Below, one piece after another: positions 1-17,701 of a stretch of DNA of 25,950 nt. Numbering within the stretch: position 1 is the stretch's first letter; each line of letters begins with the position of its first letter. The notes beneath the pieces are model-generated. The model was given only the letters and a program-made list of their open reading frames with translations, did no database searches and was not told where the DNA came from. This DNA is from a virus. The stretch is from positions 1 to 25,950 of IMG/VR virus record IMGVR_UViG_3300021356_000146; one strand, written 5' to 3'. The position numbers and the translations under genes are program-made.

Positions 1-2952
1 GAACCAAGATTCACTGATGAGGAAATGGCAGAGGTGGATAGGCTTCAGAGTGATCCTACCTCTGAGTATTACTACAATGACCCTGATGAAAGTTTTATGG
101 AAAGGTTAAAAAGAAAGCTTGCTCCGTATGGAGAAGACTTCAAGGGTTTTGTGGAATATCTTTTTACTCCTAGTAGACACTTTGGTACAGGTCAATACAA
201 CGAAGGTGGTATGGCAGAACAGATGGAGATGTTTGGTTACACTGCTGAAGGAGCACAGCAGGAAGCTGACAAGTTTGTAGAGGAAGCAGGAGATTTAGAA
301 ACTGATATATCTAAGGCTGCATCCTTTGTCGTTCCATTCTATGACTCAGGTGTGAACATAGCAAACGTTGCACAAGAGTACATGAAACCTGAACAGGAAC
401 GTGACTACGAGTATATAAAAGATCAGTTTAGAGAAGCAGGTCAGAGTGCTGCCATAGAAGGTGGTCTACTTCTTATGGGTGGTGTTGCAGGTAAATACGG
501 AGCCAAAGGTATCAAGGCTCTAGCTGATAAAGTAAAACAATACGAGATAGATCCTACAGCAATGTCAGCATTTGGTACAGGAGCTATCAGGAAAAAACCT
601 ACCATTAAAGAAGGTGTTCCCACTATAGAGGCAGCAGGTCTTACAGACGAAGCTATTGATGCTTGGCGTAGTAAGAATGAGACACCTAAAGAATTTAGAG
701 ATTCTCTAAAAGGTAGAAATCCTGAATTACAAGCTCAAGCAAAACGTTTAGGCATAGCACAAAAGTTTGAACAGGGTGTTGGGGGTAGAGTTGCTTCTGG
801 TATTTCTAATGTTGTAAGAGATACATATCGAAAACTAGCTGACGAATTAAGACCAATACGTAAAGTAAATAAAGTTCCTAAACCTGCTACCAATAAAGAA
901 ATTGTTAGTGCTCTTAACAGCCGACAAAGAACAAGCCCTATTATAGGTTTAAATGATGTTATACCAGAAAAAGATATTGTTGATGTAAGATTAAATATAC
1001 CTGCTTATACTGACTATGATGTATGGGTTCCAACAATTAGACATGATGGAAAAGAAAAGTATAAAGCTGCTGTAAGAATACAAAATGTAAAATTTATACA
1101 GCCTGATTCTGGTCCTGTAAGAAAAGCACAAGGAGTTGCTGAAGGTAGAGAAAAGAGTCCATTTGCTGTTATGACAGGTGAGTATGTTGAAGGTACTGAT
1201 AATGAAATTTTCGACATGGCAAAAGAAGTTTTTGATAGTGATGAGTGGACACAAGTAGGGTATGACCCAATAAAAAGAGGTTTCTTTTATGACAGAGAGA
1301 CTGGACAAGCAATCCTAGAAGCAGATGAAGTAATTCAGGTAGGGCATTTGGTCTTAGCAAAAAACGCAAAGAAGACAGACCCAGATGTTTTGCCTTTTAA
1401 TAAAGGCGGTGCAGTAATGGACGATCAAATGGAAATGGCATTCATGCAAGAGGGTGGAATAGCAGATGATGGTCTGGACGTAGACCCAGTATCAGGAAAC
1501 GAAGTACCACCTGGCTCTCTTGCAGAGGAAGTACGAGATGATATTCCTGCACAACTCTCTGAGGGTGAGTATGTTGTTCCTGCTGATGTTGTAAGATACT
1601 ACGGTGTCAAGTTCTTTGAAGATCTAAGAGATCAAGCTAAACGTGGGTTAGCTGAGATGGAAGCCAATGGACGCATAGGTGGAGAGCCTGTACCTGAAGG
1701 TGGTCCTGTAAATGATCAGGAACTATCTGAGCAAGAAATGGCTGCTATCAGAGAAGTAATGGGTATGGCTGAAGGTGGTACTATACAAAACCCTTACCTA
1801 CAGCAACAACAAATGTATAGCCAACCTGCGCCACAGGCTATAGGAAACACCATTGGATATTCAGGTGGTGGTCAAGTTCAAGGTTATCAAGCAGGTAATC
1901 CAGTTGTTTCAACCCCTGTTTCTTCTCAACCTGATGCTCCCTCTTACGCACAAAATACTTTTAATCCTATGCAGTATGGTCTTGGATTTAGCTTTATGGG
2001 TGGTCAGCCACAACAACAACCGCCAGTTGCAGATAATCCTAATGTCCCTGAAGTCCTGACTCTCTATGGTCCTAACGGAGAGATAAGAACATTTAACATG
2101 CCTCTCAGTGAAGCAGATGCTGCAGAAGTAGCTCGACTAAAAGAGTTAGGATACTCAGAAACAAAGGCTGTAACAACTACTTCTGTTACAGGAGGAGGTG
2201 GTGGAGGTAGTTCAAGACCACCAGTAGAAACAGATCCTAACAAGTGGATGAAAGATTTTGACTACACTGATATGGGTAATCTAGGATCACAGACATCTGA
2301 TATGTTAAAGAAATCTCCAGTGGGTAGTGTTATAGGGGCATTTATGAATGGTACTACTGCTGCTCAAGCTGCTGCTAACATTATTATTTTAGAAAATAAT
2401 GGTGGTGATCCAGAAGAAGTAGCTAGATTAAAAAGCCAGTACCAACAATTTATTAAAGACTCTAAACTGGGTTACATGCCAAAAGGTTTAATAAATGGTG
2501 ATAGACTCGCAAAAGATATTGTGGAAAATAACATAGATGTAGCTTTATTTGAGGACTCTACTGATCCTTTTGGTAATAGGATATTTAAAGAAGGAACAGA
2601 CGATTTTGAAAAGTTTGTTAAAAAAGTTGGACCTAAAGGTAGAGGTGCAAAAGGAATACAAGATACCATAGCAGCAACAAGTGCACCACCACCTAGACCT
2701 GCTCCAACAGGAACTGGTGTTTCAATTACCCCTCCTACTGATACTAAAAGAAAATCTTTAGATGTTAGAAAAGCAGAAGCACAAACTAGAATAGATGCAA
2801 AAAAACGTAGAGATAAAAGAAAGAAATCAGTTACAAAAGCTAAATCTATTAGCAAAGATGTAAAAGGAAAGGGAGCAAAAGCTGTAAGTGCTACACAAAA
2901 AGCAGGTCCGTTTAATAAAGGTGGACTAATGAATAAAAAGGGCGACAAGTAA
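1..2952 (+). CDS. Large glycine-motif structural protein, 5'-partial, with polyvalent-protein-like domain
   Basis: The frame is open from base 1. The first in-frame ATG (25) has no spaced Shine-Dalgarno sequence, so the true start is probably upstream. Residues are numbered here from that ATG (975 aa). Seen: a Gly/Ala-rich hydrophobic stretch at 141-162; a compact region at about 317-447 with DVWVPTIRH, EWTQVGYDP, FFYDRETG and ADEVIQVGHLVLAKN; a segment at 507-536 with LSEGEYVVPADVVRYYG; a Gln/Pro/Gly-rich low-complexity part at 590-670; a Gly6 linker near 723; and a Lys-rich tail. Short 'GG' motifs recur (NEGGMAEQ, NKGGAVMDD, QEGGIADD, AEGGTIQ, NKGGLMNK). From memory, the 317-447 region resembles domains of phage polyvalent proteins that are co-injected with DNA, and the SEGEYVVPADVVRYYG type is common in marine phages. 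Its place before the scaffold gene suggests a virion or head-associated protein. No enzymatic role can be assigned. Confidence 0.6.
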   Translation, partial: EPRFTDEEMAEVDRLQSDPTSEYYYNDPDESFMERLKRKLAPYGEDFKGFVEYLFTPSRHFGTGQYNEGGMAEQMEMFGYTAEGAQQEADKFVEEAGDLETDISKAASFVVPFYDSGVNIANVAQEYMKPEQERDYEYIKDQFREAGQSAAIEGGLLLMGGVAGKYGAKGIKALADKVKQYEIDPTAMSAFGTGAIRKKPTIKEGVPTIEAAGLTDEAIDAWRSKNETPKEFRDSLKGRNPELQAQAKRLGIAQKFEQGVGGRVASGISNVVRDTYRKLADELRPIRKVNKVPKPATNKEIVSALNSRQRTSPIIGLNDVIPEKDIVDVRLNIPAYTDYDVWVPTIRHDGKEKYKAAVRIQNVKFIQPDSGPVRKAQGVAEGREKSPFAVMTGEYVEGTDNEIFDMAKEVFDSDEWTQVGYDPIKRGFFYDRETGQAILEADEVIQVGHLVLAKNAKKTDPDVLPFNKGGAVMDDQMEMAFMQEGGIADDGLDVDPVSGNEVPPGSLAEEVRDDIPAQLSEGEYVVPADVVRYYGVKFFEDLRDQAKRGLAEMEANGRIGGEPVPEGGPVNDQELSEQEMAAIREVMGMAEGGTIQNPYLQQQQMYSQPAPQAIGNTIGYSGGGQVQGYQAGNPVVSTPVSSQPDAPSYAQNTFNPMQYGLGFSFMGGQPQQQPPVADNPNVPEVLTLYGPNGEIRTFNMPLSEADAAEVARLKELGYSETKAVTTTSVTGGGGGGSSRPPVETDPNKWMKDFDYTDMGNLGSQTSDMLKKSPVGSVIGAFMNGTTAAQAAANIIILENNGGDPEEVARLKSQYQQFIKDSKLGYMPKGLINGDRLAKDIVENNIDVALFEDSTDPFGNRIFKEGTDDFEKFVKKVGPKGRGAKGIQDTIAATSAPPPRPAPTGTGVSITPPTDTKRKSLDVRKAEAQTRIDAKKRRDKRKKSVTKAKSISKDVKGKGAKAVSATQKAGPFNKGGLMNKKGDK

Positions 2953-2971
2953 ATAATAACTATAAGGCTAC

Positions 2972-2988
2972 CCAGGAATGGTTCCTGG
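2972..2988 (+). promoter_or_regulatory. Perfect 7-bp hairpin upstream of scaffold gene
   Basis: CCAGGAA (2972-2978) and TTCCTGG (2982-2988) are perfect inverted repeats around a 3-nt loop. They lie in the 60-nt gap between two genes. No T-run follows, so this is not a standard intrinsic terminator. An RNA-processing or mRNA-stability stem is more likely. The scaffold Shine-Dalgarno sequence AAAGGAG (2998-3004) lies just downstream. Confidence 0.5.
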
Positions 2989-3012
2989 CCCCAACATAAA
3001 GGAGAACTTTAA

Positions 3013-3957
3013 ATGCCTGAATTAACTGAAATGGAAAAACCAAAGACTGCAGGTTATGTAGATCGTGGATACAACCACTCTAGAAAACAAAAACGTATGG
3101 AAGAAGAAGAGGCAGAGATTGCCCGACTAGAAGCAGAGGCTCGTGGTGAAGAAGTTACTGAGAGTGAATCCAGTGGCGAAGATACTGAGAACACCGAAGT
3201 ACAAGCAACAGACGATTCCAAACAAGAAGAAACCGAAGAGGAAACCGAAGCACAGGAAAACGATAGTAGCCTGAGTGCTGAAGAGAAATCTTTTAAGAAA
3301 CGTTATGGTGACTTGCGTAGACATATGCAAGACAAAGAGAAAGAGTGGAACGAAAAGTTTGAAGCTCTACAAGCCAGAAGTGAACGTGAAGGTATTATTC
3401 CTCCTAAGTCTGATGAAGACATAGATGCTTGGTCAAGGAAGTATCCAGACGTTGCAGGTATTGTAGAAACCATAGCAGCTAAAAAAGCTCAAGAGATGTT
3501 CAGTAAAGCTGAGTCACGTCTACAAGAGTTAGACGAAGCTCACCTTGAAGCAGAAAGAGTAAAAGCAGAAAACGCTATTCGTAAGTCTCATGAAGACTTT
3601 GACGAATTAAGAGAATCAGATCAGTTTCACGACTGGGCAAATGACCAACCTAAATGGGTTAAGGATGCACTCTACGAAAACATGGATGATCCTGGCTCAG
3701 TTATTCGTGTGATTGATCTATACAAGATTGACAACGGTATGACCGTTGCAGCTAAGAAACAATCTAAGAAAGCTGCAGCATCTACTGTTGCAAAAGGAAC
3801 TCGTGCTTCTATTGATGTAGAAGGTGTACAGGGATCTATTAAAGAGTCTGATGTAGCCAAGATGTCAAATAAGGAGTTTGAGGAAATGCAGGACAAAATA
3901 AACGAAGCGATGCGTAAAGGCAAGTTTATTTACGATGTTTCGGGTTCTGCAAGATAA
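3013..3957 (+). CDS. Capsid assembly scaffolding protein
   Basis: This 314-residue, highly charged protein lies directly before the major capsid gene, the T7 gp9/gp10 arrangement. Residues 29-93 are strongly acidic, with long Glu/Asp runs. Residues 94-190 are charged and helix-forming, with probable coiled coil. A conserved-looking segment at 193-239 contains HEDFDELRESDQFHDWAN, QPKWVKDALYEN and IDLYKID. The C-terminus is basic and helical (279-306), as expected for the coat-binding end of scaffolds. No transmembrane segment or catalytic motif is visible. The start is supported by AAAGGAG eight bases upstream. From memory, this type of sequence is regularly annotated as scaffold in marine podoviruses. 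It should act transiently inside the procapsid. Confidence 0.8.
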   Translation: MPELTEMEKPKTAGYVDRGYNHSRKQKRMEEEEAEIARLEAEARGEEVTESESSGEDTENTEVQATDDSKQEETEEETEAQENDSSLSAEEKSFKKRYGDLRRHMQDKEKEWNEKFEALQARSEREGIIPPKSDEDIDAWSRKYPDVAGIVETIAAKKAQEMFSKAESRLQELDEAHLEAERVKAENAIRKSHEDFDELRESDQFHDWANDQPKWVKDALYENMDDPGSVIRVIDLYKIDNGMTVAAKKQSKKAAASTVAKGTRASIDVEGVQGSIKESDVAKMSNKEFEEMQDKINEAMRKGKFIYDVSGSAR

Positions 3958-3961
3958 TTAG

Positions 3962-3989
3962 TTGACATATTTAAAGTCATCTATATAAC
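3962..3989 (+). promoter_or_regulatory. Sigma70-type promoter for the capsid gene
   Basis: A perfect -35 hexamer TTGACA (3962-3967) is followed after 16 bases by TATAAC (3984-3989), five of six matches to TATAAT. It starts four bases after the scaffold stop codon, in the only long intergenic gap of the window. Predicted transcription starts near 3995-3997, exactly at the foot of the stem-loop 3994-4038. No phage-type single-subunit polymerase promoter was recognised. Confidence 0.6.
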
Positions 3990-3993
3990 TACG

Positions 3994-4038
3994 AGTATCT
4001 GACTTGAAGCCTCCGTAAGGACTACCTTCAAAGATACT
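3994..4038 (+). ncRNA. Bulged long stem-loop in the capsid-gene leader
   Basis: The left arms AGTATCT (3994-4000) and TTGAAG (4004-4009), separated by a 3-nt bulge, pair with the continuous right arm CTTCAA-AGATACT (4026-4038). An inner CCT/AGG mini-stem lies at 4010-4020. That gives 13 outer base pairs plus 3 inner. TTTT begins at 4038, so a weak intrinsic terminator for the scaffold transcript is the alternative. Placed at the predicted 5' end of the promoter 3962-3989, it more probably stabilises the capsid mRNA. Confidence 0.55.
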
Positions 4039-4087
4039 TTTCATTAAAAGTCTAAACTACAAAGAACTACCTGGACAAGTATAGGCC

Positions 4088-4122
4088 CAGTGGTATTTGG
4101 TAGCGCAACCTAATACTAACTG
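4088..4122 (+). ncRNA. Second leader stem-loop, upstream of capsid gene
   Basis: CAGT (4088-4091) pairs with ACTG (4119-4122), GTATT (4093-4097) with AATAC (4112-4116), and GGT (4099-4101) with ACC (4108-4110), with one T-T mismatch and a small internal loop. The hexaloop is AGCGCA. It lies about 60 bases before the capsid Shine-Dalgarno sequence and leaves that site free. The role is unknown: leader stability or regulation are both possible. Confidence 0.45.
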
Positions 4123-4184
4123 CACCCTAGAAAACGTACAGCCTCTTTCAGATGTTTAAGCTTTCTTCATAAGCCAAATATCAT

Positions 4185-4189
4185 GGAGG
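4185..4189 (+). promoter_or_regulatory. Shine-Dalgarno site that fixes the capsid start
   Basis: GGAGG lies eight bases before ATG 4198. It overlaps the codons that follow an in-frame ATG at 4183, which has no ribosome site of its own. Translation should therefore begin at 4198, not 4183. Confidence 0.85.
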
Positions 4190-4197
4190 ATTTAACT

Positions 4198-5271
4198 ATG
4201 GCTTTTCAAACCGCATCGGGTTACGGTAATTTACCTAACGGTAATTTTAGTTCCGTAATCTACTCCAAGAAAGTACAACTTGCTTTCCGCAAGAGTACTG
4301 TCGTAGGAGACATCACTAACTCTGATTATTTTGGGGAGATTTCTGCCCAAGGTGATACAGTGAAAATTATCAAGGAGCCAGAAATTTCTGTGAACGCCTA
4401 TGCTAGGGGTACACAGGTTTCAGCACAAGACCTTGATGACGAAGACTTCTCTCTAGTTGTCGATAAAGCAAACTACTACGCTTTTAAAATTGACGATATA
4501 GAAGAAGCGCATAGTCATGCGAATTTCATGCAGCTTGCAACTGATCGTGCAGCATATCGTTTGGCTGATCAGCATGACCAAGAAGTTCTTGGTTATCTAT
4601 CAGGTTACAAACAGTCTGCTTTACACTCAAATGCAGGTGCAGTGAATGACGTAGTAAACGGAACTAAAGCAGTTTCAACTGCAGGTTCTGACGAATTGTT
4701 GACATCAATGAAACTCCGCAAGGACTCATTTGGCAACATCACAACTGGCTCTGCAGGAGATCACTCAATTCCTGTAGCAGCACGTCTACCAGGTGCAACA
4801 GCACTACCAACAGCAACTGTTTCTCCTGCAATGATCGTAGCTCGTATGGCTCGTTTGTTGGATCAACAGCAAGTTGATACACAAGGTAGATGGCTCGTTG
4901 TAGACCCTGTGTTCATGGAAATATTAGCTGACGAAGATTCACGTCTGTTAAATTCTGACTATGGACAGTCTGGTGCTCTACGTAACGGTCTAGTACTGAA
5001 CAACCTACATGGCTTCAGAATCTATAGTTCTTCAAACCTTCCTGCAGTAGGAACAGGCCCAGGAACTACAGGCTCTGCAAACCAAAACAGTAACTTTGGT
5101 GTTATTGTTGCAGGTCATGACTCAGCAGTAGCAACTGCAGAGCAGATCAGTAAGACTGAAACATATCGTGATCCAGATAGCTTTGCTGACATTGTTAGAG
5201 GAATGCACCTATATGGTCGCAAGATTCTACGTCCAGAAGCAATCGTCACTGCTAAATATAACGCAGCTTAA
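4198..5271 (+). CDS. Major capsid protein (T7-like, HK97-fold family)
   Basis: This 357-residue protein is called from the ATG preceded by GGAGG at optimal distance; the upstream ATG at 4183 is inside that ribosome site. Seen: an N-terminal NFSSVIYSKKVQLAFRKSTV segment; a central region with VVDKANYYAFKIDDIEEAHS followed by a helix rich in Ala/Gln/Asp, like the spine-helix region of T7 gp10-type coat proteins; then RWLVVDPVFMEILADE and a C-terminal GMHLYGRKILRPEAIV strand region. Size, position directly after the scaffold and the strong translation signals agree with the most abundant virion protein. It should form the icosahedral shell. The 240-base leader with promoter and stem-loops suggests extra transcription of this gene. 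No protease or decoration domain is fused to it. Confidence 0.88.
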   Translation: MAFQTASGYGNLPNGNFSSVIYSKKVQLAFRKSTVVGDITNSDYFGEISAQGDTVKIIKEPEISVNAYARGTQVSAQDLDDEDFSLVVDKANYYAFKIDDIEEAHSHANFMQLATDRAAYRLADQHDQEVLGYLSGYKQSALHSNAGAVNDVVNGTKAVSTAGSDELLTSMKLRKDSFGNITTGSAGDHSIPVAARLPGATALPTATVSPAMIVARMARLLDQQQVDTQGRWLVVDPVFMEILADEDSRLLNSDYGQSGALRNGLVLNNLHGFRIYSSSNLPAVGTGPGTTGSANQNSNFGVIVAGHDSAVATAEQISKTETYRDPDSFADIVRGMHLYGRKILRPEAIVTAKYNAA

Positions 5272-8154: not shown

Positions 8155-11100
8155 ATGGCAGGTTATTCAAGACAATCAGCAGCAGACATTATTGCTAATG
8201 CGGTTATTAAAGCTGCACCAGTAAACGCAGAATACAATGCAATACGAGATGCGTTTGCTTTCTCAGGTGGACACAAGCATGATGGTAGTTCTACAGAAGG
8301 TGCATATGTACCTCTCATAGCTGACACTGATGCGCTAAACAAAGTTGTAATAGATACAACAAACAATCGTATTGGTTTCTTCAGTGAGGTATCATCTGCT
8401 GCAGTAGAGCAGTTACGTATACAGGATGGTGCTATCGTTCCTGTAACTGACGATGATGTAGACCTTGGTGCATCAGGAGCAGAGTTTAAAGATTTATATG
8501 TAGACGGTATAGGTTATATAGATACTGTACAGATACATGAAAATGCAACTATTACTGGTAATCTTACTGTAAACGGAAACACTACTCTTGGTGATGCAGC
8601 TACAGATACTGTTACTGTAACTGCTGATGTTGCTTCTCCTCTTATTCCTTCTGCTGATGATACACATGATCTTGGTGCTGTAGGCTCTGAGTGGCGTAAC
8701 TTATATGTTGATGGTACAGGAAATATAGACAGTCTTGTAGCTGATACTGCAGATATTAATGGTGGTACAATTGATGGTGCAGCTATTGGTGGTAACAGTG
8801 CTTCTACAGGTAGTTTTACTACAATAGGTTCTTCTGGTTTAGCTACATTAAACTCACTTACAGTAACAGGTGCTACTGCTCTTAATGGTGGTCTTACTAT
8901 GGACACCGATAAATTTACTGTGGCAGACACAAGTGGTAACACTGCAATAGCAGGTACGTTAGATGTTACAGGTCAAACAACTGTTGCCAACTTTACAGCT
9001 ACAGGAACCACTGTATTACCTGCTACGTCTTTTGGAGATAACAATATTACTAATGTAGGTGATATTGCATTAGATAGTATTAGTGCAGATGGTAGTACAA
9101 TTACTATTACAGGTAACACTACTTTTGCTGATGGCTCTTTTAATTTTGATATAGCTTCTCATGATGGCACAAATGGTCTTGCTCTTGGTGGTACTGTAGT
9201 AACAGCCAGTGCAGCAGAGTTAAATATTATGGACGGTGTAACGTCTACTACTGCTGAAATAAATATTCTAGACGGAGATACTTCAGCAACCTCAACAACT
9301 GTAGCAGATGCAGATCGTGTTGTACTAAATGATAATGGTACAATGGTACAAGTTGCTGTTACAGATCTTGCTGCATATTTTGATGATGAAATTACAGCGA
9401 TGCCAAACCTTGTTACTACAGGTGCTCTTAACTCTGGCTCTATTACATCTGGTTTTGGTACTATTGACAATGGCTCTAGCACAATTACCACTACAGGAAA
9501 TATTACTGGTGGTAATATTATTATTAGTGATGGGGGTAACATAGGTTCTTCTAGTGATACAGATGCAATAGCCATCGCTTCTAGTGGTAATGTTACTATG
9601 AGTCAAAATTTAACTGTTACAGGAGATTTAACAGTTAATGGTTCTACTACAACTATTAGTACAACTAACACAACAATTGAAGATGCTCTCATAGAACTAG
9701 GTACAGGTACAACAGGTACTCCTGCAAATGATGCAGGTATTGTTATTGAACGTGGTGATAGTGATAATGCATTTATTGGTTTTGATGAGTCTGCAGATAA
9801 ATTTATTGTAGGCACAGGATCATTTACAGGTGCATCTACTGGCGATCTTACTATTAGTACAGGAACTCTTGTAGCTAATGTAGAAGGTGCTCTTACAGGA
9901 AATTCTTCAACTGCTACTGCATTGGCAACTGCTAGAACAATTGCAGGTCAATCTTTTGACGGTACCGCTAATATAAGTATTGCACCTACAGATTTAACAA
10001 ATGTAACTGCAACTGCCACTGAAATAAATGTTATGGATGGTGATACCTCTGCTACCTCCACAACACTTGCTGATGCTGACAGAGTTGTTGTTAATGATGC
10101 AGGAACTATGAAGCAAGTAGCTCTTACTGACTTTGAGACTTATTTTGAATCTGCATTAGATACACTTAGTAACGTAACAACAGTTGGTGCTCTTAACAGT
10201 GGTAGCATAACAAGTGGCTTTGGAGCTATAGATAATGGCTCAAGCAATATTACTACGTCAGGTACTATACAATTTGGTAATTTATCAGATGGCACAGTGT
10301 CAGTTACTGATATTGCAGATGAGGATGACTTTAGTAGTAATAGTGCAACTAAACTTGCAACCCAACAGTCTATTAAAGCTTACGTAGACAGTACAGCAGG
10401 TCAAGCTAATAACGTTACAGGTCTTACGGCTACAGGTGCAGAGCTTAACGCTGTAGCAGATGTATCAGCAATTACTATTGACACAAGCACAGCAATTGCA
10501 GCAGATGATGGTATTGCAGTATATGACACGTCTGGTTCGTCTATAGGTTACTTTGATGTAGATTTACTTGATACATACTTTTCAGGCACTACAAAAACAC
10601 TAACAAACAAAACTATTACAAGTCCTGTCGTAACTGGGCTACATCTTAATGACTCAGGATTTACTGTAGAAGGTTCCAGTGCAGACGCAAACGAAACTAC
10701 AGTTACTTTTACTAACCCAACTGCAGACAGAACAATTACTATACCAGATGCTAGTGGTACTGTGGCTTTAATTGATAGTAACGGACAATTAAAAGTAGAA
10801 GCTAGTGGAGCAAACGCACCAAGTTTGTATTTAAACAATGATGCTAGTGGAGTAAGCGGTTTTAGAATACAACCTTTAAACACCTTTGATATATGGCGTA
10901 TAGATTTCGATGCTCTTGATACGGATGTGCTGTCAGGCGCAAACGTATATGTTGACAATGAGGTTACCTTTTCTTTTTCTGCACCTACTATTGGCCCATT
11001 TATTCACTACGGTGATGTGCAACTTGCAGCTGGCGGTGATTTAATCTTTGAGGGTGCAACTAACAATTCATTTGAAACTACATTAACAGTGGCAGACCCA

Positions 11101-11208
11101 ACTGCTGATAGGACAATTACTTTACCTGATGATACAGGCACTGTAGCTTTAACAAAAGATGTAGCCTCAACAGGAAAAGCTATTGCTATGGCAATGGTAT
11201 TTGGATAA
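8155..11208 (+). CDS. Large repetitive tail fibre protein
   Basis: This 1017-residue protein is dominated by Thr, Ser, Asp, Gly and Ala in short beta repeats, typical of trimeric fibres. The N-terminus (residues 1-50) has a helical attachment-like segment and SGGHKHDGSS. Two copies of a module ending in LYVDG lie at about 98-118 and 168-188 (DLGASGAEFKDLYVDG; DLGAVGSEWRNLYVDG). Long TxTGxLTVNG-type stretches follow. A 77-residue segment at 366-442 is repeated at 621-697. Two copies of PTADRTITxPDxxGTVAL lie near 855-872 and 982-999. The C-terminus is GKAIAMAMVFG, and no intramolecular chaperone or peptidase motif was recognised. It starts one base after the nozzle stop with AGGAGA 11 bases upstream. 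It should be the main adsorption fibre or the stalk that carries the downstream adhesins. Confidence 0.8.
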   Translation: MAGYSRQSAADIIANAVIKAAPVNAEYNAIRDAFAFSGGHKHDGSSTEGAYVPLIADTDALNKVVIDTTNNRIGFFSEVSSAAVEQLRIQDGAIVPVTDDDVDLGASGAEFKDLYVDGIGYIDTVQIHENATITGNLTVNGNTTLGDAATDTVTVTADVASPLIPSADDTHDLGAVGSEWRNLYVDGTGNIDSLVADTADINGGTIDGAAIGGNSASTGSFTTIGSSGLATLNSLTVTGATALNGGLTMDTDKFTVADTSGNTAIAGTLDVTGQTTVANFTATGTTVLPATSFGDNNITNVGDIALDSISADGSTITITGNTTFADGSFNFDIASHDGTNGLALGGTVVTASAAELNIMDGVTSTTAEINILDGDTSATSTTVADADRVVLNDNGTMVQVAVTDLAAYFDDEITAMPNLVTTGALNSGSITSGFGTIDNGSSTITTTGNITGGNIIISDGGNIGSSSDTDAIAIASSGNVTMSQNLTVTGDLTVNGSTTTISTTNTTIEDALIELGTGTTGTPANDAGIVIERGDSDNAFIGFDESADKFIVGTGSFTGASTGDLTISTGTLVANVEGALTGNSSTATALATARTIAGQSFDGTANISIAPTDLTNVTATATEINVMDGDTSATSTTLADADRVVVNDAGTMKQVALTDFETYFESALDTLSNVTTVGALNSGSITSGFGAIDNGSSNITTSGTIQFGNLSDGTVSVTDIADEDDFSSNSATKLATQQSIKAYVDSTAGQANNVTGLTATGAELNAVADVSAITIDTSTAIAADDGIAVYDTSGSSIGYFDVDLLDTYFSGTTKTLTNKTITSPVVTGLHLNDSGFTVEGSSADANETTVTFTNPTADRTITIPDASGTVALIDSNGQLKVEASGANAPSLYLNNDASGVSGFRIQPLNTFDIWRIDFDALDTDVLSGANVYVDNEVTFSFSAPTIGPFIHYGDVQLAAGGDLIFEGATNNSFETTLTVADPTADRTITLPDDTGTVALTKDVASTGKAIAMAMVFG
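9250..9480 (+). repeat. Fibre internal repeat, copy 1 (77 residues)
   Basis: Encodes fibre residues 366-442 (from AEINILDGDTSATSTT to GFGTIDNGSS). It aligns without a gap to residues 621-697, exactly 255 residues later. Confidence 0.8.
10015..10245 (+). repeat. Fibre internal repeat, copy 2 (77 residues)
   Basis: Encodes fibre residues 621-697 (from TEINVMDGDTSATSTT to GFGAIDNGSS). Many residues are identical to copy 1 at 9250-9480, and the offset is constant at 765 bases, so this is a segmental duplication within the fibre. Confidence 0.8.
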
Positions 11209-11600: not shown

Positions 11601-13076
11601 ATGAAATCTTTCGGTAACATTGCTAAAGATGGTCAGGTCAGGGCAGTCGCTTCTGGTGCTTTGACTGACGGCACTCCTGTTATTGTAAACTCTGATGGGA
11701 CTGTGAGTGTAGTTAGCTCTACAGGAACTAATGTAACACAAGCAGTAGGATCTGCAACAGTTTTTGAAAGTGCTACTACAGAAGCAGGGGCAGGTGTTTT
11801 TGATAGTTCTAACAATAAGGTTGTGCTTTCCTATAGAGATGAAGGTAATAGTAACTATGGTACAGCAATAGTTGGAACCATTGATGATACAACAATTACT
11901 TTTGGTAGTCCTGTTGTTTTTCAAACAGCCGATACTGCTGCAAATTTTCCGATAGCAGGTGTTTTTGATAGTTCTAACAATAAAGTTGTTTTTGCATATC
12001 AACAAGGTTCATCAGATGGTAAAGCTGTTGTTGGTACTGTGTCAGGTACTTCTATAAGCTTTGGAACTCCTGTTAACTTTCACTCGTCTAGATCATTTGA
12101 TGTATGTGCTGCTTTTGACAGCACTAATAATAAAGTAGTGATTGGTTTCAGGAGTAATTCCCAGTCAGAATATGGTCGAGCTATAGTTGGTACAGTATCA
12201 GGAACATCAATAAGTTTTGGCACATCAGTCGTTTTTAATACTGCATACTCTGGTAACATAAGTTGTTGTTTTAGTCCTGATGCTTCCAAAGTCGTTTTTG
12301 CTTACAGGGATGAAGGTGCTTCTAATTATGGGAAAGCCATTGTTGGTACAGTTTCTGGAACGTCTATTTCTTATGGCTCAGAGGCTACATTTTTATCTTC
12401 TAGTTGTGAGGGAACTACAAGTTCTTATGATACAGATAGTGATAAAGTAATTATTGGTTATAAGAAAGTAGTTAGTGGTACTAATAAAGTATTCGGGGCA
12501 GTTGTTGGAACAATTTCAGGCACAAGTATTAGTTTTGGAAGTAATACAGATACATCAACAAAAATGAATTTTGAGCAGTTTAGCTCTACTTTTGATACTT
12601 CTGCAAATAAAACTGTTTTTGTTTTAAATGATGAAAGTTCCCCACAAAAAGTACTTGCTTTTTTAGGAACTGTGTCGGGAACTTCAATTACTTTAAGTAG
12701 TTCTATTGCAATAAGTGATAGTGCGGTAACAGGCGATCATCCTTCTGTTGTATTTGATAGTAATAAATTACGAAATGTTATTACTTATGGTGATAGCAGT
12801 AATTCAAATCATGGAACGGCTAATGTTTTAAGAAATTCTTATGCTGCACCTAACCTCACCTCAGAAAACTTCATAGGTTTTTCAGATGGTGCATTTGCAG
12901 ACACCGATAACGCAGCAATAAACACAACAAACACAATTGACAGAAACCAAAGCAGCCTTACAGCAGGGCAAACATATTTTGTGCAAACGGATGGCACACT
13001 AGGATTAACAGCAGACGATCCCTCAGTAACAGCAGGGACTGCTATATCAGCTACGGAATTAATAGTGAAAGGTTAA
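11601..13076 (+). CDS. Seven-blade propeller protein 1 (candidate receptor-binding protein)
   Basis: 491 residues. Residues 13-40 form the front half of a carrier domain (VASGALTDGTPVIVNSDG). Residues 46-415 hold seven blade repeats whose [FY]-[DS]-x-NKVV-type cores start at about 66, 121, 171, 223, 275, 330 and 384, a spacing of 50-55. Most blades end with VGTVSGTSISFGT. Residues 418-491 form the back half of the carrier (LTSENFIGFSDG, SLTAGQTYFVQTDG, AGTAISATELIVKG). There is no signal peptide or membrane part. The blades resemble BNR/sialidase-type propeller strands, but no sialidase catalytic set is evident, so binding rather than hydrolysis is inferred. It is the first of three paralogues. 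The ribosome site is weak (AGAAAG), which may lower its expression. Confidence 0.7.
   Translation: MKSFGNIAKDGQVRAVASGALTDGTPVIVNSDGTVSVVSSTGTNVTQAVGSATVFESATTEAGAGVFDSSNNKVVLSYRDEGNSNYGTAIVGTIDDTTITFGSPVVFQTADTAANFPIAGVFDSSNNKVVFAYQQGSSDGKAVVGTVSGTSISFGTPVNFHSSRSFDVCAAFDSTNNKVVIGFRSNSQSEYGRAIVGTVSGTSISFGTSVVFNTAYSGNISCCFSPDASKVVFAYRDEGASNYGKAIVGTVSGTSISYGSEATFLSSSCEGTTSSYDTDSDKVIIGYKKVVSGTNKVFGAVVGTISGTSISFGSNTDTSTKMNFEQFSSTFDTSANKTVFVLNDESSPQKVLAFLGTVSGTSITLSSSIAISDSAVTGDHPSVVFDSNKLRNVITYGDSSNSNHGTANVLRNSYAAPNLTSENFIGFSDGAFADTDNAAINTTNTIDRNQSSLTAGQTYFVQTDGTLGLTADDPSVTAGTAISATELIVKG
11736..12845 (+). repeat. Propeller blade array, 7 units (protein 1)
   Basis: Seven diverged repeats of about 52 codons. 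The recurrent DNA encodes VGTVSGTSISFG in each unit, with drifted synonymous sites. The count of seven is by reading the [FY]D...KVV core motifs. Confidence 0.75.
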
Positions 13077-13079
13077 AGA

Positions 13080-13355
13080 ATGAAAACTATCGTAGAAACA
13101 TCAACTAAATTAAGTAAATTTTTGTTAGAAGATAATGTTGAAATAGTATCAACTACTACAGAAATTACGGTTGGAAACCCAGACGCAAGCAACCCTGCCT
13201 TTATAGTTGCTTGTCACTCAAGCCAAGACACCACAATTTATGAAAATGTAACCAATGCACCTGAAGATTGGATAGGCAACAAGTATACCTTTGACGGTAC
13301 AACTTGGACAGCTAACCCTGATTGGGTAGAACCTTCAGAGGATGACGGAGAGTAA
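13080..13355 (+). CDS. Small acidic protein between propeller genes, unknown
   Basis: This 91-residue protein starts three bases after the first propeller gene stops. Its ribosome site (GAAAGG, seven bases upstream) lies inside the end of that gene. The N-terminal half looks beta-rich (KLSKFLLEDNVEIVSTTTEI). The C-terminal half has IYENVTNAPEDWIGNKYTFD followed by GTTWTANPDWVEPSEDDG, a Trp-rich, acidic end. There is no signal or membrane segment. From memory, proteins with PEDWxGNKYxFDGTTWTxNPDW endings occur beside fibre genes in marine phages, without known function. The conserved Trp-rich tail could be a docking peptide for a fibre or propeller protein (inference). Confidence 0.55.
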   Translation: MKTIVETSTKLSKFLLEDNVEIVSTTTEITVGNPDASNPAFIVACHSSQDTTIYENVTNAPEDWIGNKYTFDGTTWTANPDWVEPSEDDGE

Positions 13356-13363
13356 TAATAATA

Positions 13364-14815
13364 ATGCTGCGTGTTATAGGCAACGATCAGAATTTACCAA
13401 GACAGGAGCACGCTGTAGCTAGTGGTGCTTTAACGAATGGTAAACCTGTTATTGTAAATGCAAATGGAACTGTCTCTACTGTATCTTCAAATACAGTAAC
13501 ACAGTCATTTACTACTCCTGTTGTGTATGAAAGTGGTAATACTTCTTCACATGCTGCATGTTACGATACTACTAACGACAAAGTGGTTGTAGCTTATGAT
13601 GATGAAGACAATAGTAATTATGGAACTGCTATTGTTGGAACAGTTTCTTCAGGTAGTATTACCTTTGGGTCAGCGGCTGTATTTGAACAAGCAAGTGTTG
13701 ATTATGTTGCATGTGACTTTGATGCCAATACAGGTAAAGTTGTTATAGCATATAGAGACGGTGGTAACTCTAATTATTGTACCGCTATTGTTGGTACTGT
13801 GTCAGGTACTTCTATTAGCTTTGGTACACCACAGGTTGTTGAAACTACTTCTTCATTTTACATAAATGTTATTCAAGATTCTACTAATAACAAAACAGTA
13901 ATAGCTTGGCAGACATCATCAGCCACGAGAGCTAGAGTAGGTACAATAAGTGGGACAAGTATATCCTTTGGTACTGCTGTAACAGTAAAATCAGAAACTA
14001 GTCCCTCTTACTTAGCAAGTTGTTTTGATAGTACAAACAGTCAAATCTTACTTTCGTGGAGAGATGCTTCACAGGATGGAAGAGCAAGTAGAGGGACTGT
14101 TTCAGATACTTCTATCAGTTTTAGTGGTGAGGGAGAATGGGAGTCTGGTTCAGTACACACTAATCAGGGTATGGCCCATGACCCTGTCAATCAAAAAACT
14201 GCAATATTTTTTCGTGATAGTGGTAATTCTAACTATGGCTCTGGAATAGTAGTCACTAATACTGGAAGTGGTTCTCTAACTTTCGGTTCAAAAGTTGTGT
14301 TTAATGAAGGCGCATCCTACAATATTAATGCGGTATATGACTCTACTTCTGGTAAAATCCTAGTTGTATATCGTGATGGTGGTAACTCAAGTCATGGAAC
14401 TTTTATAACTTCAACTATTTCTGGCACTTCTATAAGTTTTGATTCAGAAACTGTTTTTGAAGCTGCCACTTCTCTTGATTTTGGTGTGGCTGATGTAGCT
14501 GACGAGGGTGTTATATTTATTGGTTATAAAGATAACGGTAATATTGGTAAGGGTACTGCTACGCTAGTCACAGTAGGTTATACTGATGAAAATCTTACTT
14601 CAGAAAACTATATTGGCATAGCTCGTAGTGGTGTAGCAGACACAGCAAAGGCTATCATAGATACACAAGGTGCAATAGCTGACAACCTATCTGGGCTAAC
14701 GGCAGGGCAAAGCTACTACGTTCAGAATGATGGTACATTAGGCACAACGGCTGATGATCCTAGCGTCTTTGCAGGAACGGCTGTGTCAGCAACACAATTA
14801 ATAGTGAAAGGGTAA
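13364..14815 (+). CDS. Seven-blade propeller protein 2 (candidate receptor-binding protein)
   Basis: 483 residues, paralogous to the preceding propeller gene over its full length. The carrier front half lies at 16-42 (AVASGALTNGKPVIVNANG). Seven blade repeats lie at 45-407, with cores near 67, 119, 171, 221, 272, 325 and 377; the last is degenerate (DEGVIFIGYKDNG). The carrier back half lies at 410-483 (LTSENYIGIARSG, GLTAGQSYYVQNDG, AGTAVSATQLIVKG). Blade loops differ strongly from protein 1 while the termini stay similar, which suggests selection for diversity at the binding face. The ribosome site GGAGAG lies 11 bases upstream, within the preceding gene's end. It lies two bases before the third propeller gene, so all three are probably co-transcribed. 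Confidence 0.7.
   Translation: MLRVIGNDQNLPRQEHAVASGALTNGKPVIVNANGTVSTVSSNTVTQSFTTPVVYESGNTSSHAACYDTTNDKVVVAYDDEDNSNYGTAIVGTVSSGSITFGSAAVFEQASVDYVACDFDANTGKVVIAYRDGGNSNYCTAIVGTVSGTSISFGTPQVVETTSSFYINVIQDSTNNKTVIAWQTSSATRARVGTISGTSISFGTAVTVKSETSPSYLASCFDSTNSQILLSWRDASQDGRASRGTVSDTSISFSGEGEWESGSVHTNQGMAHDPVNQKTAIFFRDSGNSNYGSGIVVTNTGSGSLTFGSKVVFNEGASYNINAVYDSTSGKILVVYRDGGNSSHGTFITSTISGTSISFDSETVFEAATSLDFGVADVADEGVIFIGYKDNGNIGKGTATLVTVGYTDENLTSENYIGIARSGVADTAKAIIDTQGAIADNLSGLTAGQSYYVQNDGTLGTTADDPSVFAGTAVSATQLIVKG
13496..14584 (+). repeat. Propeller blade array, 7 units (protein 2)
   Basis: Seven repeats of about 52 codons. Units 2, 5 and 6 keep the strongest RDxGNSxxG motif; units 3, 4 and 7 are shortened or degenerate. 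Confidence 0.75.
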
Positions 14816-14817
14816 CT

Positions 14818-17421
14818 ATGCTAAAACGTATAGGTGCTGAAGAAAGTGGTGAGTTTAAAGCAGTAGCTAGTGGCGCATTAGCAAGTGGTAAACCTGTTAT
14901 TATTAATGCCGATGGGACTGTGTCTGTAATTTCACAGAGTAGCGGAACTCAAGCAGCAGGTACGAAAGTAGCAATAACTTCTAATAACTCATATCAAATA
15001 TCAGGTCGAGCTTATGACACTGCAAATGACAAAGTAGTTTTTGTATATACTGACCTAGGTAATAGTAGTTATGGTACGGCTGTTGTTGGTACAGTAAATG
15101 GCTCAGATAATTCTATAAGTTTAGGTACACCTGTTGCATTTAATGCAGGTACAACTTACTATTCTTCTTGTGCCTATGACGAATCAAACGGTAAAATTGT
15201 AATAGCCTATCAAGATGCAGGGGATAGTAATAAAGGAAAGGCTATTGTAGGTACAGTAAGTGGTACATCTATAAGCTTTGGAACTGAAGTAGAGTTTTCA
15301 GCTTCTATTACAGGTTACACTGCTACTTTTTACCATCCAGTTCAGCAAAGTATTGTAATTGCCTATGAAGCAAGTGCTTCAAAACTTATTGCAGGAACTG
15401 TTAGTGGAACTTCAATTAGTTTTGGTTCAGTCGCAACTCTTACAGGCAATAATATGGAGTGGCCTAGTTTTGCTTATGACTCTGATAATGATAAACTTAT
15501 TCTTTCTTTTGAAGGTTCGAGTAATTATGGTTATGTTGGCGCTGTTACAGTTAGTGGCACTACTGTTACTATGAATCAAACAGTTATATTTAATAATGCT
15601 AGTACTCAACACACGTCTGCTATTTACGATAAAAATGCTCAAAAATTTGTAATATTTTATACAGATCAGACCAACTCAAACTATGGGAGTTACGTTACAG
15701 CTACTGTGTCAGGTACAACTACAACTGTTAGTGGAGAAACTGTTCATAATACTGCTGCAACTTATTATAGTAATGCTGCTTATCACGAAGAAGCTAAAAA
15801 AGTATTTGTTGCATACAGAGATGCTAGTGATGGCGGTGAATATAAATTTGGCACAGTAGCTTCTGGCGCTTTAAGTGCTGACAGTATTACTTTTGATACT
15901 GCTGCACAGTTTTCAAGTGGTGTACCTACTTGGTTTTATAACGCAGCGACTTACGATCCAGATCAAAAGAAAGTTGTTCTTGGTTACAGAGATCCTGACT
16001 CTGGGAATACGAATGTTGCGCTTATTGTTTTTGATGCAACGTATACAGCAACTAGCCTCACCTCAGAAAACTACATTGGTATGTCAAGAGGAACTGCTTT
16101 TCAAACAGGAAATGCTCCAAGCGTTGGGACAAGTGTTGCTTTTAATAGTGCATCAACTAGATATACAACAGCAGCTTATGATTCTAACGCACAAAAAGTT
16201 GTAATAGCATATAGAGACGGTGGCAACTCTAACAAAGGAAATTGTGTTGTTGGCACAGTAGATCCTTCAGACAACTCAATAACGTTTGGTTCAGAGATTA
16301 ATTTTGAAAATGCTAATACTCAATATACGAGAATAGTGTATGACTCCAATGCTCAAAAAGTGGTTATAGTATATAGGGATGGTGATAATAGTGACTATGG
16401 AACAGCAATAGTTGGAACGGTTAGTGGTACTTCTATTTCGTTTGGGACTGCGGCTGTTTTTAACACTGCAAACACAAGTGAGACTGATGTTACTTATGAT
16501 TCAGACGCCCAGAAAATTGTAGTTATTTATGCTGATTCCGCAGATTCTGGTAAAGGCACAGCCAAGGTAGGAACTGTTAGTGGTACTTCAATTAGTTTTG
16601 GCTCTGCTACACAATTTAGTAGTAACAACTTTCAAGATTATATAGGAGCTACGTATGATGAAAATGCTCAAAAAGTGGTTATTGCTTGTAGAGATACCAC
16701 TAACAGTTTCTACGGTACGGCTGTAGTTGGAACTGTTTCTGGTACTTCAATTAGTTTTGGTACACCTGTTGTATATAATCAAGGCACTTCTGAAGACAAC
16801 AAACCTGTTTATGATCCTAGCTCACAAAAAGTTGTAATATTTTATAGAGACGGTGGTAATAGTGACTATGGAACAGCCATTGTAGGAACTGTTAGTGGCA
16901 CTTCTATTTCGTTTGGAACGGAAGTTGTATTTAACGAAGCAAACACCGATACACAAAGATCAGCAGTATATGACTCTAGCGCACAAAAGGTTGTAACGGC
17001 ATATAGGGATGCAGCAGATAGTTTCGCAAATAGTTATATGATTTCTGGAAAAGTAAGTGGTACTTCAATTACTTTTGATTCTGAGACTTCTTTTCATAGT
17101 GGGCGTGGTCAAGAAATAGGATTAGCTTACGATTCTGGTAATGAAAGGGTTGTTATATCTTTCAGAGATAGCACCAACTCTAGTCATGGAAAAGCTGCCG
17201 TTGGTACTACAAACACTATAGCAACTACTAGAAGCGAAATAGCAGATGGCGGCAATGCCTCAATGGACATCATAGGCTCTGTGTCAGATAACCAGATCGG
17301 TCTTACCGCAGGGCAACAATACTTTGTACAGACAGACGGAACGATAGGCACAACAGCAGATAGTCCAAGTGTACTGGCAGGGACTGCTATTTCAGCAACT
17401 GAGTTATTAGTAAAAACTTGA
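14818..17421 (+). CDS. Double seven-blade propeller protein 3 (candidate receptor-binding protein)
   Basis: 867 residues. The carrier front half lies at 13-40 (AVASGALASGKPVIINADG). Propeller 1 (about 43-405) has seven cores at about 66, 120, 171, 220, 269, 321 and 379. Then comes the carrier segment LTSENYIGMSRG at 414-425. Propeller 2 (about 432-805) has seven cores at about 454, 508, 560, 613, 665, 718 and 771, strikingly regular at 52-54 residues. The remaining carrier back half lies at 806-867 (EIADGG, GLTAGQQYFVQTDG, AGTAISATELLVKT). Propeller 2 blades are much more alike than those of propeller 1 and use YDSNAQKVVI repeatedly, suggesting recent expansion or homogenisation. The ribosome site is GAAAGGG five bases before the ATG. 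A binding role on the tail is inferred; no enzyme motif was seen. Confidence 0.7.
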   Translation: MLKRIGAEESGEFKAVASGALASGKPVIINADGTVSVISQSSGTQAAGTKVAITSNNSYQISGRAYDTANDKVVFVYTDLGNSSYGTAVVGTVNGSDNSISLGTPVAFNAGTTYYSSCAYDESNGKIVIAYQDAGDSNKGKAIVGTVSGTSISFGTEVEFSASITGYTATFYHPVQQSIVIAYEASASKLIAGTVSGTSISFGSVATLTGNNMEWPSFAYDSDNDKLILSFEGSSNYGYVGAVTVSGTTVTMNQTVIFNNASTQHTSAIYDKNAQKFVIFYTDQTNSNYGSYVTATVSGTTTTVSGETVHNTAATYYSNAAYHEEAKKVFVAYRDASDGGEYKFGTVASGALSADSITFDTAAQFSSGVPTWFYNAATYDPDQKKVVLGYRDPDSGNTNVALIVFDATYTATSLTSENYIGMSRGTAFQTGNAPSVGTSVAFNSASTRYTTAAYDSNAQKVVIAYRDGGNSNKGNCVVGTVDPSDNSITFGSEINFENANTQYTRIVYDSNAQKVVIVYRDGDNSDYGTAIVGTVSGTSISFGTAAVFNTANTSETDVTYDSDAQKIVVIYADSADSGKGTAKVGTVSGTSISFGSATQFSSNNFQDYIGATYDENAQKVVIACRDTTNSFYGTAVVGTVSGTSISFGTPVVYNQGTSEDNKPVYDPSSQKVVIFYRDGGNSDYGTAIVGTVSGTSISFGTEVVFNEANTDTQRSAVYDSSAQKVVTAYRDAADSFANSYMISGKVSGTSITFDSETSFHSGRGQEIGLAYDSGNERVVISFRDSTNSSHGKAAVGTTNTIATTRSEIADGGNASMDIIGSVSDNQIGLTAGQQYFVQTDGTIGTTADSPSVLAGTAISATELLVKT
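14944..16032 (+). repeat. Propeller blade array 1 of protein 3, 7 units
   Basis: Seven diverged blades (AYDTANDKVVF, AYDESNGKIVI, FYHPVQQSIVI, AYDSDNDKLIL, IYDKNAQKFVI, AYHEEAKKVFV, TYDPDQKKVVL). Spacing is irregular, 49-58 residues. Confidence 0.75.
16111..17232 (+). repeat. Propeller blade array 2 of protein 3, 7 near-regular units
   Basis: Seven blades with cores AYDSNAQKVVI, VYDSNAQKVVI, TYDSDAQKIVV, TYDENAQKVVI, VYDPSSQKVVI, VYDSSAQKVVT and AYDSGNERVVI. Spacing is constant at 52-54 residues, and VGTVSGTSISFG recurs at almost every unit end. Confidence 0.8.
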
Positions 17422-17434
17422 CATTTAAAGGTAA

Positions 17435-17701
17435 ATGAGTTTAACTATGAGTGATATTAAATTATCTCCAGAAGAAGTAGAAGGTATGCTAGATCGTGCA
17501 GCTAGGCGTGGTGCTAAAGAGGCATTGCGTTCTATTGGTTTACTTGATGATGATGCACAAAGAGACATTACAGAAATGAGAAGTTTACTGGAGGCTTGGA
17601 GAGATACTCGTAGATCTATCTGGTCAACTGTAGTTAAATTAACCACTGTCGCATTGCTAACATTTATTGCAGGTGCAGTGTGGATGACAATGGGTAAGTA
17701 A
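17435..17701 (+). CDS. Small single-TM protein, possible holin
   Basis: 88 residues. A charged, helical N-terminal part (residues 8-62: LSPEEVEGMLDRAARRGAKE, RSLLEAWRDTRRSI) is followed by one hydrophobic segment at about 64-85 (TVVKLTTVALLTFIAGAVWM) and a short Lys end. This is a C-tail-anchored or type-III-holin-like layout. From memory it resembles small DUF6127-like phage proteins. It lies just before the internal virion genes, and a muramidase-like gene lies further downstream, so a role in lysis or in membrane contact during ejection is possible. The start is uncertain: ATG 17435 has AAGG only three bases upstream, and ATG 17447 (84 residues) would have GAG seven bases upstream. Confidence 0.55.
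   Translation: MSLTMSDIKLSPEEVEGMLDRAARRGAKEALRSIGLLDDDAQRDITEMRSLLEAWRDTRRSIWSTVVKLTTVALLTFIAGAVWMTMGK

Follow-up and report, generated by a model that had tools for sequence, protein, structure and literature searches.

How a phage can change its host specificity and still keep an intact virion has long been asked, and domain shuffling in phage fibers is general knowledge. Propellers are on record in phage receptor-binding proteins, and so are decoration folds that take part in adhesion. A propeller is the candidate receptor-binding module of the phi11 receptor-binding protein, PRD1 P2 and PhiKZ gp131C (PMC4901313), and the head fiber of phi29, gp8.5, joins a decoration-fold (beta-tulip) base to a projecting adhesion element (PMC7602432). 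The nozzle protein of SU10 has a seven-bladed propeller with nested insertions (PMC9509320). Cement or decoration proteins are represented by PF22758 (E217 gp24, Pam3 gp6), by PF09956 (formerly DUF2190) and by beta-tulip proteins such as lambda gpD. Lentibacter phage ICBM2 encodes a cultured-phage homologue of the proteins described here, gp49, with carrier halves around a propeller and a gene in the tail-fiber region beside chaperone genes; the interval holding gp49 was described as variable and tail-fiber encoding in the paper on the ICBM2 group (PMC6775973).

The two-propeller gene and its paralogues

The window analyzed here is a stretch of marine phage DNA of 25,950 nucleotides (positions 1 to 25,950 of IMG/VR record IMGVR_UViG_3300021356_000146) containing three propeller genes, P0001, P0002 and P0003 (Table 1). 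A preliminary description had proposed that all three proteins share a carrier, and alignment bore out both its front half (VASGAL..G.PVI.N..GTVS) and its back half (LTSEN[FY]IG..LTAGQ..AGTA..SAT.L[IL]VK). Blades were counted with a 52-residue profile made from the window and two relatives, giving 7 in P0001, 7 in P0002 and 7 + 7 = 14 in P0003. Profile alignment placed propeller 1 of P0003 between the carrier halves, as in the paralogues, and propeller 2, as had been claimed, begins right after LTSENYIGMSRGTA and stops right before EIADGG. The order in P0003 is front strands, seven-bladed propeller, LTSENYIG strand, seven-bladed propeller and remaining strands.

Table 1. Features of the propeller locus (limits of the P0003 inserts are those of the profile alignment, plus or minus a few residues)
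Feature	Position in window	Strand	Residues	Basis or remark
Tail-fiber protein, module start	8155-11208	+		76% identity with CRP-9 gp47 ("putative tail fiber protein") over the first 141 aa
120-aa structural-like protein, upstream of P0001	11224-11586	+		homologue of HMO-2011 / CRP-9 "putative structural protein"
P0001, carrier and one propeller in S1	11601-13076; insert 11724-12851	+		blade profile, profile alignment
91-aa protein between P0001 and P0002	13080-13355	+		35% identity (1e-13) with ICBM2 gp48, whose annotation reads "tail assembly chaperone"
P0002, carrier and one propeller in S1	13364-14815; insert 13493-14590	+		propeller-less allele, L098 2998-3348
P0003 carrier front half, strands to GKPVIINADGTVS	14818-14934	+	1-39	
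P0003 propeller 1, 7 blades, socket S1	14935-16047	+	40-410	blade matches; AF2 pLDDT mostly 70-94
P0003 carrier middle strand (SLTSENYIGMSRGTAF)	16048-16098	+	411-427	conservation in two-propeller proteins
P0003 propeller 2, 7 blades, socket S2	16099-17241	+	428-808	blade matches; AF2 pLDDT about 90
P0003 carrier remaining strands (ADGGNASMDIIG..LTAGQQYFVQ..AGTAISATELLVKT)	17242-17418	+	809-867	

Each insert had seven repeats, with strands modeled by AF2 at pLDDT about 90, consistent with a seven-bladed beta-propeller of seven four-stranded blades. Foldseek matches of the P0003 model to PDB structures included two-propeller proteins, e.g., 1nr0. Scans of the full proteins against Pfam and PHROG gave no usable domain, and PDB sequence searches gave no match for P0003 and chance-level matches only for the carrier profile. 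One match of P0003, to Cyclophil_like2 (3.7e-11), was rejected as a repeat artifact with no single stretch passing. The two propellers of P0003 were 40.2% identical, against a median of 42.3% for random propeller pairs; as they are as unlike as random pairs, a recent local duplication is not indicated.

The gene directly after the propeller genes (17435-17701) encodes a DUF6127 protein 91% identical to CRP-1 gp36, and is kept where the genes before it vary.

Empty and filled sockets

The nearest relative, L002, was 83.5% identical over window positions 14590-16091 and 86.6% over 17299-17417. Its gene 3 (77.8% amino acid and 83.5% nucleotide identity to P0003) cleanly lacked propeller 2, the carrier running straight from LTSENYIGISKGGA to VADTKGATVDIIGA with no insert; the second propeller of L002 was found in its first gene, at a different site. 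The propeller-2 site was uninterrupted in the homologous stretch of P0001, as originally noted, and also in P0002 and L002 gene 3. For P0002, the empty counterpart was protein 2 of L098, an intact 117-aa carrier with no propeller; window positions 13346-13474 (83% nucleotide identity) and 14591-14815 (88%) matched stretches of L098 that lie 18 nt apart. A search for the uninterrupted domain in other phages had been suggested, and it was found as natural propeller-less proteins of about 117 to 127 aa in L098, L107 (2605-2958), L123 (367-732) and L117 (2938-3318), and behind an Mtd_N domain in L136 (2836-3306). An 80-aa frame in the protein-2 slot of L065 (9716-9955) was rejected as an empty carrier; it has lost the GxPVIVN hairpin as well as the propeller and looks like what a deletion left behind.

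A profile alignment of 271 non-redundant relatives was used to place every long insert. In L098 numbering, inserts lay at about 20 (S0), 33-46 (S1), 54-66 (S2), 74-78 (S3) and 97 (S4), and the AF2-predicted strands of L098 at 14-19, 28-31, 36-39, 50-54, 63-67, 84-87, 102-107 and 113-115, indicating that the inserts occupy inter-strand loops; the minority placements that overlap a strand (S1 at 37-39, S2 at 63 and 66) are within the few-residue uncertainty of the aligner. Inserts were found in S1 alone (181 proteins), S1 + S2 (32), S1 + S3 (16), S2 alone (6), S0 + S1 (4) and S1 + S4 (1), these counts being taken from well-aligned proteins and representing non-independent events, as sampling was seeded from P0003 and its relatives. 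The recurrence of the S1 + S2 arrangement in 32 non-redundant proteins indicates that the P0003 layout is not due to chance. Propeller-length inserts (n = 314) had a mean of 370 ± 9 aa. Proteins filled at S2 only, with an intact start and an empty S1, included L048, L143 and L078.

The S2-filled carriers shared a socket signature, YIGMS.G before the insert and RG[EQ]VA[DS]G after it, and the S2 flanks of P0003 were near, not identical to, the empty-site sequence. Identity of the middle strand to the consensus was 0.75 in two-propeller and 0.82 in single-propeller proteins, against 0.39 when shuffled.

Other domains also occupied the sockets. Three proteins with an S1 propeller had at S2 a domain of ~104 aa (CSFHG..HPLHFKDSGG..YYCTVHGNGMGN; L077 3-1748, L023 13417-15243 and L061 11156-12961), which gave no match in a Pfam search and which we read, from its sequence, as cupredoxin-like. 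Three more combined S1 with a repeat insert of ~240 to 269 aa at S3 that matched SGL and other propeller families in Pfam. This second repeat family (FN.DGTKMY..VYQYSLST, SGL/propeller-like) fills S3 or S4 (L004 5958-8174, L057 146-2410, L147 1617-3869 and L049 1-2235) and is seen, too, in stand-alone tail proteins of the cultured phages ICBM2 (gp51, L179) and CRP-9 (gp42, L181).

In L020 (2622-5174), a single ambiguous case, two consecutive propellers are separated only by GGKVKQISETS, possibly marking a further (sixth) socket in the front hairpin. The S1 insert of L117 1399-2700 is just 312 aa and is possibly a six-bladed propeller. In genome contigs, carrier genes were seen only in two MAG fragments, L183 and L184, filed as Euryarchaeota and Maricaulis MAGs, which are possibly phage contigs binned with a MAG.

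Three pairs of propellers were closely similar across different sockets: L144 S2 and L063 S1 (91.5% amino acid, 93.0% nucleotide identity; carriers 63.5% identical), L026 S2 and L006 S1 (89.6%, 88.6%; carriers 60.9%), and L011 S2 and L021 S1 (87.6%, 85.1%; carriers 55.7%). In these pairs the partner propeller within the same protein was only 40 to 46% identical, and the stretch of high identity stopped within about 20 to 45 nt of the propeller ends (about 20 nt for L144/L063). Similarity of 85 to 93% at the nucleotide level between propellers in different sockets and genes, on carriers only 56 to 64% identical, indicated that propellers move as cassettes; in a propeller tree, nearest neighbors often came from another socket. 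With five insertion positions, socket-to-socket transfer and non-propeller inserts, the case for a plug-in architecture is stronger than when it was first put forward.

Carrier fold, genomic setting and proposed role

The natural L098 carrier was modeled by AF2 (43 aligned sequences) with front and back strands in one model, at a pLDDT of 84.5 and a pTM of 0.75. In Foldseek searches of the PDB, its best matches were Adjutor 8saj_1 (E 4.8e-4, TM 0.70, whole-length) and cyanophage Pam3 8hdt_G (9.2e-4), followed by HFTV1, phiCD508, TW1, Sf11, the phi29 head-fiber base 6qyy, SHP and lambda gpD; the top matches were nearly all capsid decoration chains of phages or viruses. Profile matches were weak and recurrent: PF22758 was matched by 14 of 19 carriers (best, 1.1e-6) and PF09956 likewise by 14 of 19 (best, 2.6e-4), the natural uninterrupted L098 and L123 among them, at scores below the Pfam curated cut-off where bit scores were given (up to 21.7 against 24 bits for PF09956). 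By the L098 model and its matches, the carrier is predicted to be small and all-beta and to have the cement/decoration fold of phage capsids.

It had been proposed that the two carrier halves fold together. This held for the uninterrupted L098 domain, whereas in the full-length AF2 model of P0003 (23 relatives) both propellers were confident and the carrier pieces had pLDDT values below 50, so that this model was left out of the evidence on packing. The further proposal, that one small domain presents propellers from two loops, agrees with the S1 and S2 insert sites, while joint packing in P0003, by which both propellers would project from one folded chassis, is what we infer.

The coat and nozzle genes of the window were closest to those of Roseobacter phages CRP-9 and CRP-1 and of HMO-2011, in which the same interval is occupied by genes for tail fibers and tail structural proteins, not the same ones in each phage. 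The gene order was of the HMO-2011 type, with fiber and chaperone genes (the latter the ICBM2 gp48-like neighbor), and the propeller genes lay in this tail-fiber module, away from the coat gene. Carriers were also fused to fiber or attachment domains: Mtd_N was matched in L136 (8.8e-14), and L051, L146, L168, L172 and L153 had fiber-like N-terminal extensions. In L136, two Mtd_N genes are neighbors (2836-3306 and 3312-4871), the first with an empty carrier and the second longer and ending in a carrier back half.

Tail-fiber gene order, a chaperone-like neighbor and the stalk and Mtd_N fusions make distal adhesion the most likely role, and a distal receptor-binding function of P0003-type proteins is likely. 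By this context and these fusions, the propellers are putative "receptor-binding heads", as the preliminary description called them. P0003 and its paralogues are, we consider with fair confidence, modular tail-fiber (distal adhesion) proteins in which a cement-fold chassis offers its loops as sockets for exchangeable propellers, a reading based on the observed architecture, empty and filled sites, several sockets, movement of cassettes and the predicted fold of the empty chassis. The chassis would be the small all-beta domain, its inter-strand loops serving as sockets occupied by whole seven-bladed propellers or, less often, other domains; cassettes would enter or leave a socket, or be traded from one socket, paralogous gene or phage to another, which would be possible because loop insertion keeps the chassis fold intact. 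P0003 would thereby hold two unrelated propellers, at S1 and S2. The propellers would bind host-surface receptors, and their exchange may shift host specificity. A broader version is, in our judgment, slightly more likely than not: a general multi-socket display chassis, in which the cement fold was recruited to tail fibers, at least five exposed inter-strand loops each accept whole foreign domains, heads are shuffled between loops, genes and lineages, and two heads can be carried at once.

The carrier fold makes capsid decoration the main rival, as a protein with a cement-like fold could sit on the head instead of the tail. The carrier would then be a true cement protein on the head, its propellers acting as head fibers that stick the virion to cells or particles, as for phi29 gp8.5 and T4 Hoc. 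The fold matches are overwhelmingly to decoration proteins, the phi29 head-fiber base included, and some decoration proteins are known to take part in host adhesion (PMC7602432). Moreover, in 15 phage records PF09956 matched, below its cut-off, solely within long frames (488 to 885 aa), which agree with the propeller genes in size and position, and nothing else. This location is nevertheless unlikely, given that the genes are within the tail-fiber module rather than beside the coat gene, next to a relative of a tail assembly chaperone, that carriers are fused to fiber stalks and Mtd_N, and that in the BFVD viral models the carrier fold often lies within large proteins whose descriptions name a tail, collagen repeats or Mtd_N.

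On the same chassis, the propellers could be enzymes, e.g., glycan degrading, instead of binding heads. Several seven-bladed propellers are enzymes, and xyloglucan-degrading propeller proteins were among the many other Foldseek matches; with no convincing Pfam enzyme family match for P0003, however, this is improbable. Least probable of all is that the two-propeller carrier is unfolded, with LTSENYIG a mere linker and propeller 2 a tandem duplicate of propeller and linker, as the low pLDDT of the P0003 carrier pieces and a faint likeness of NTIATTRSEIADGG, after propeller 2, to the LTSENYIG..ADT stretch would allow, since by the L002 empty-site allele a propeller was cleanly gained or lost at a single point, the P0003 propellers are no closer than random pairs, the LTSENYIG strand is kept in two-propeller proteins, S2 is filled in proteins with an empty S1, and S2 also accepts the ~104-aa non-propeller domain.

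Relation to known systems

For proteins of this kind, the sequence directly displays alleles with no, one or two sockets filled, together with closely similar propellers in different sockets, so that the way in which domains are acquired can be followed step by step and put to the test. These alleles illustrate how phages may remodel their host-contacting parts, suggest reuse of a capsid-stabilizing fold in tail fibers, and point to a scaffold, evolved in nature, in which several loops can take large insertions. In the open-access text searched, neither a small multi-socket chassis with cassettes moving between sockets nor inserted propellers on decoration folds were found.

The uninterrupted carrier appears to have the same fold as the cement and decoration proteins, but differs from them in being broken by large domains at several loops, in its tail-fiber gene context and in matching their profiles below Pfam cut-offs. 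In phi29 gp8.5 the fiber is C-terminal to the base rather than inserted in a loop, and is a helical coil rather than a propeller. The phi11 receptor-binding protein, PRD1 P2 and PhiKZ gp131C have, as described (PMC4901313), one propeller per chain and no interchangeable multi-socket chassis. The nesting is reversed in the SU10 nozzle protein, where domains are inserted into the propeller and the protein is a nozzle, not an adhesin. ICBM2 gp49, annotated as hypothetical, differs from P0003 in having a single, divergent propeller between its carrier halves.
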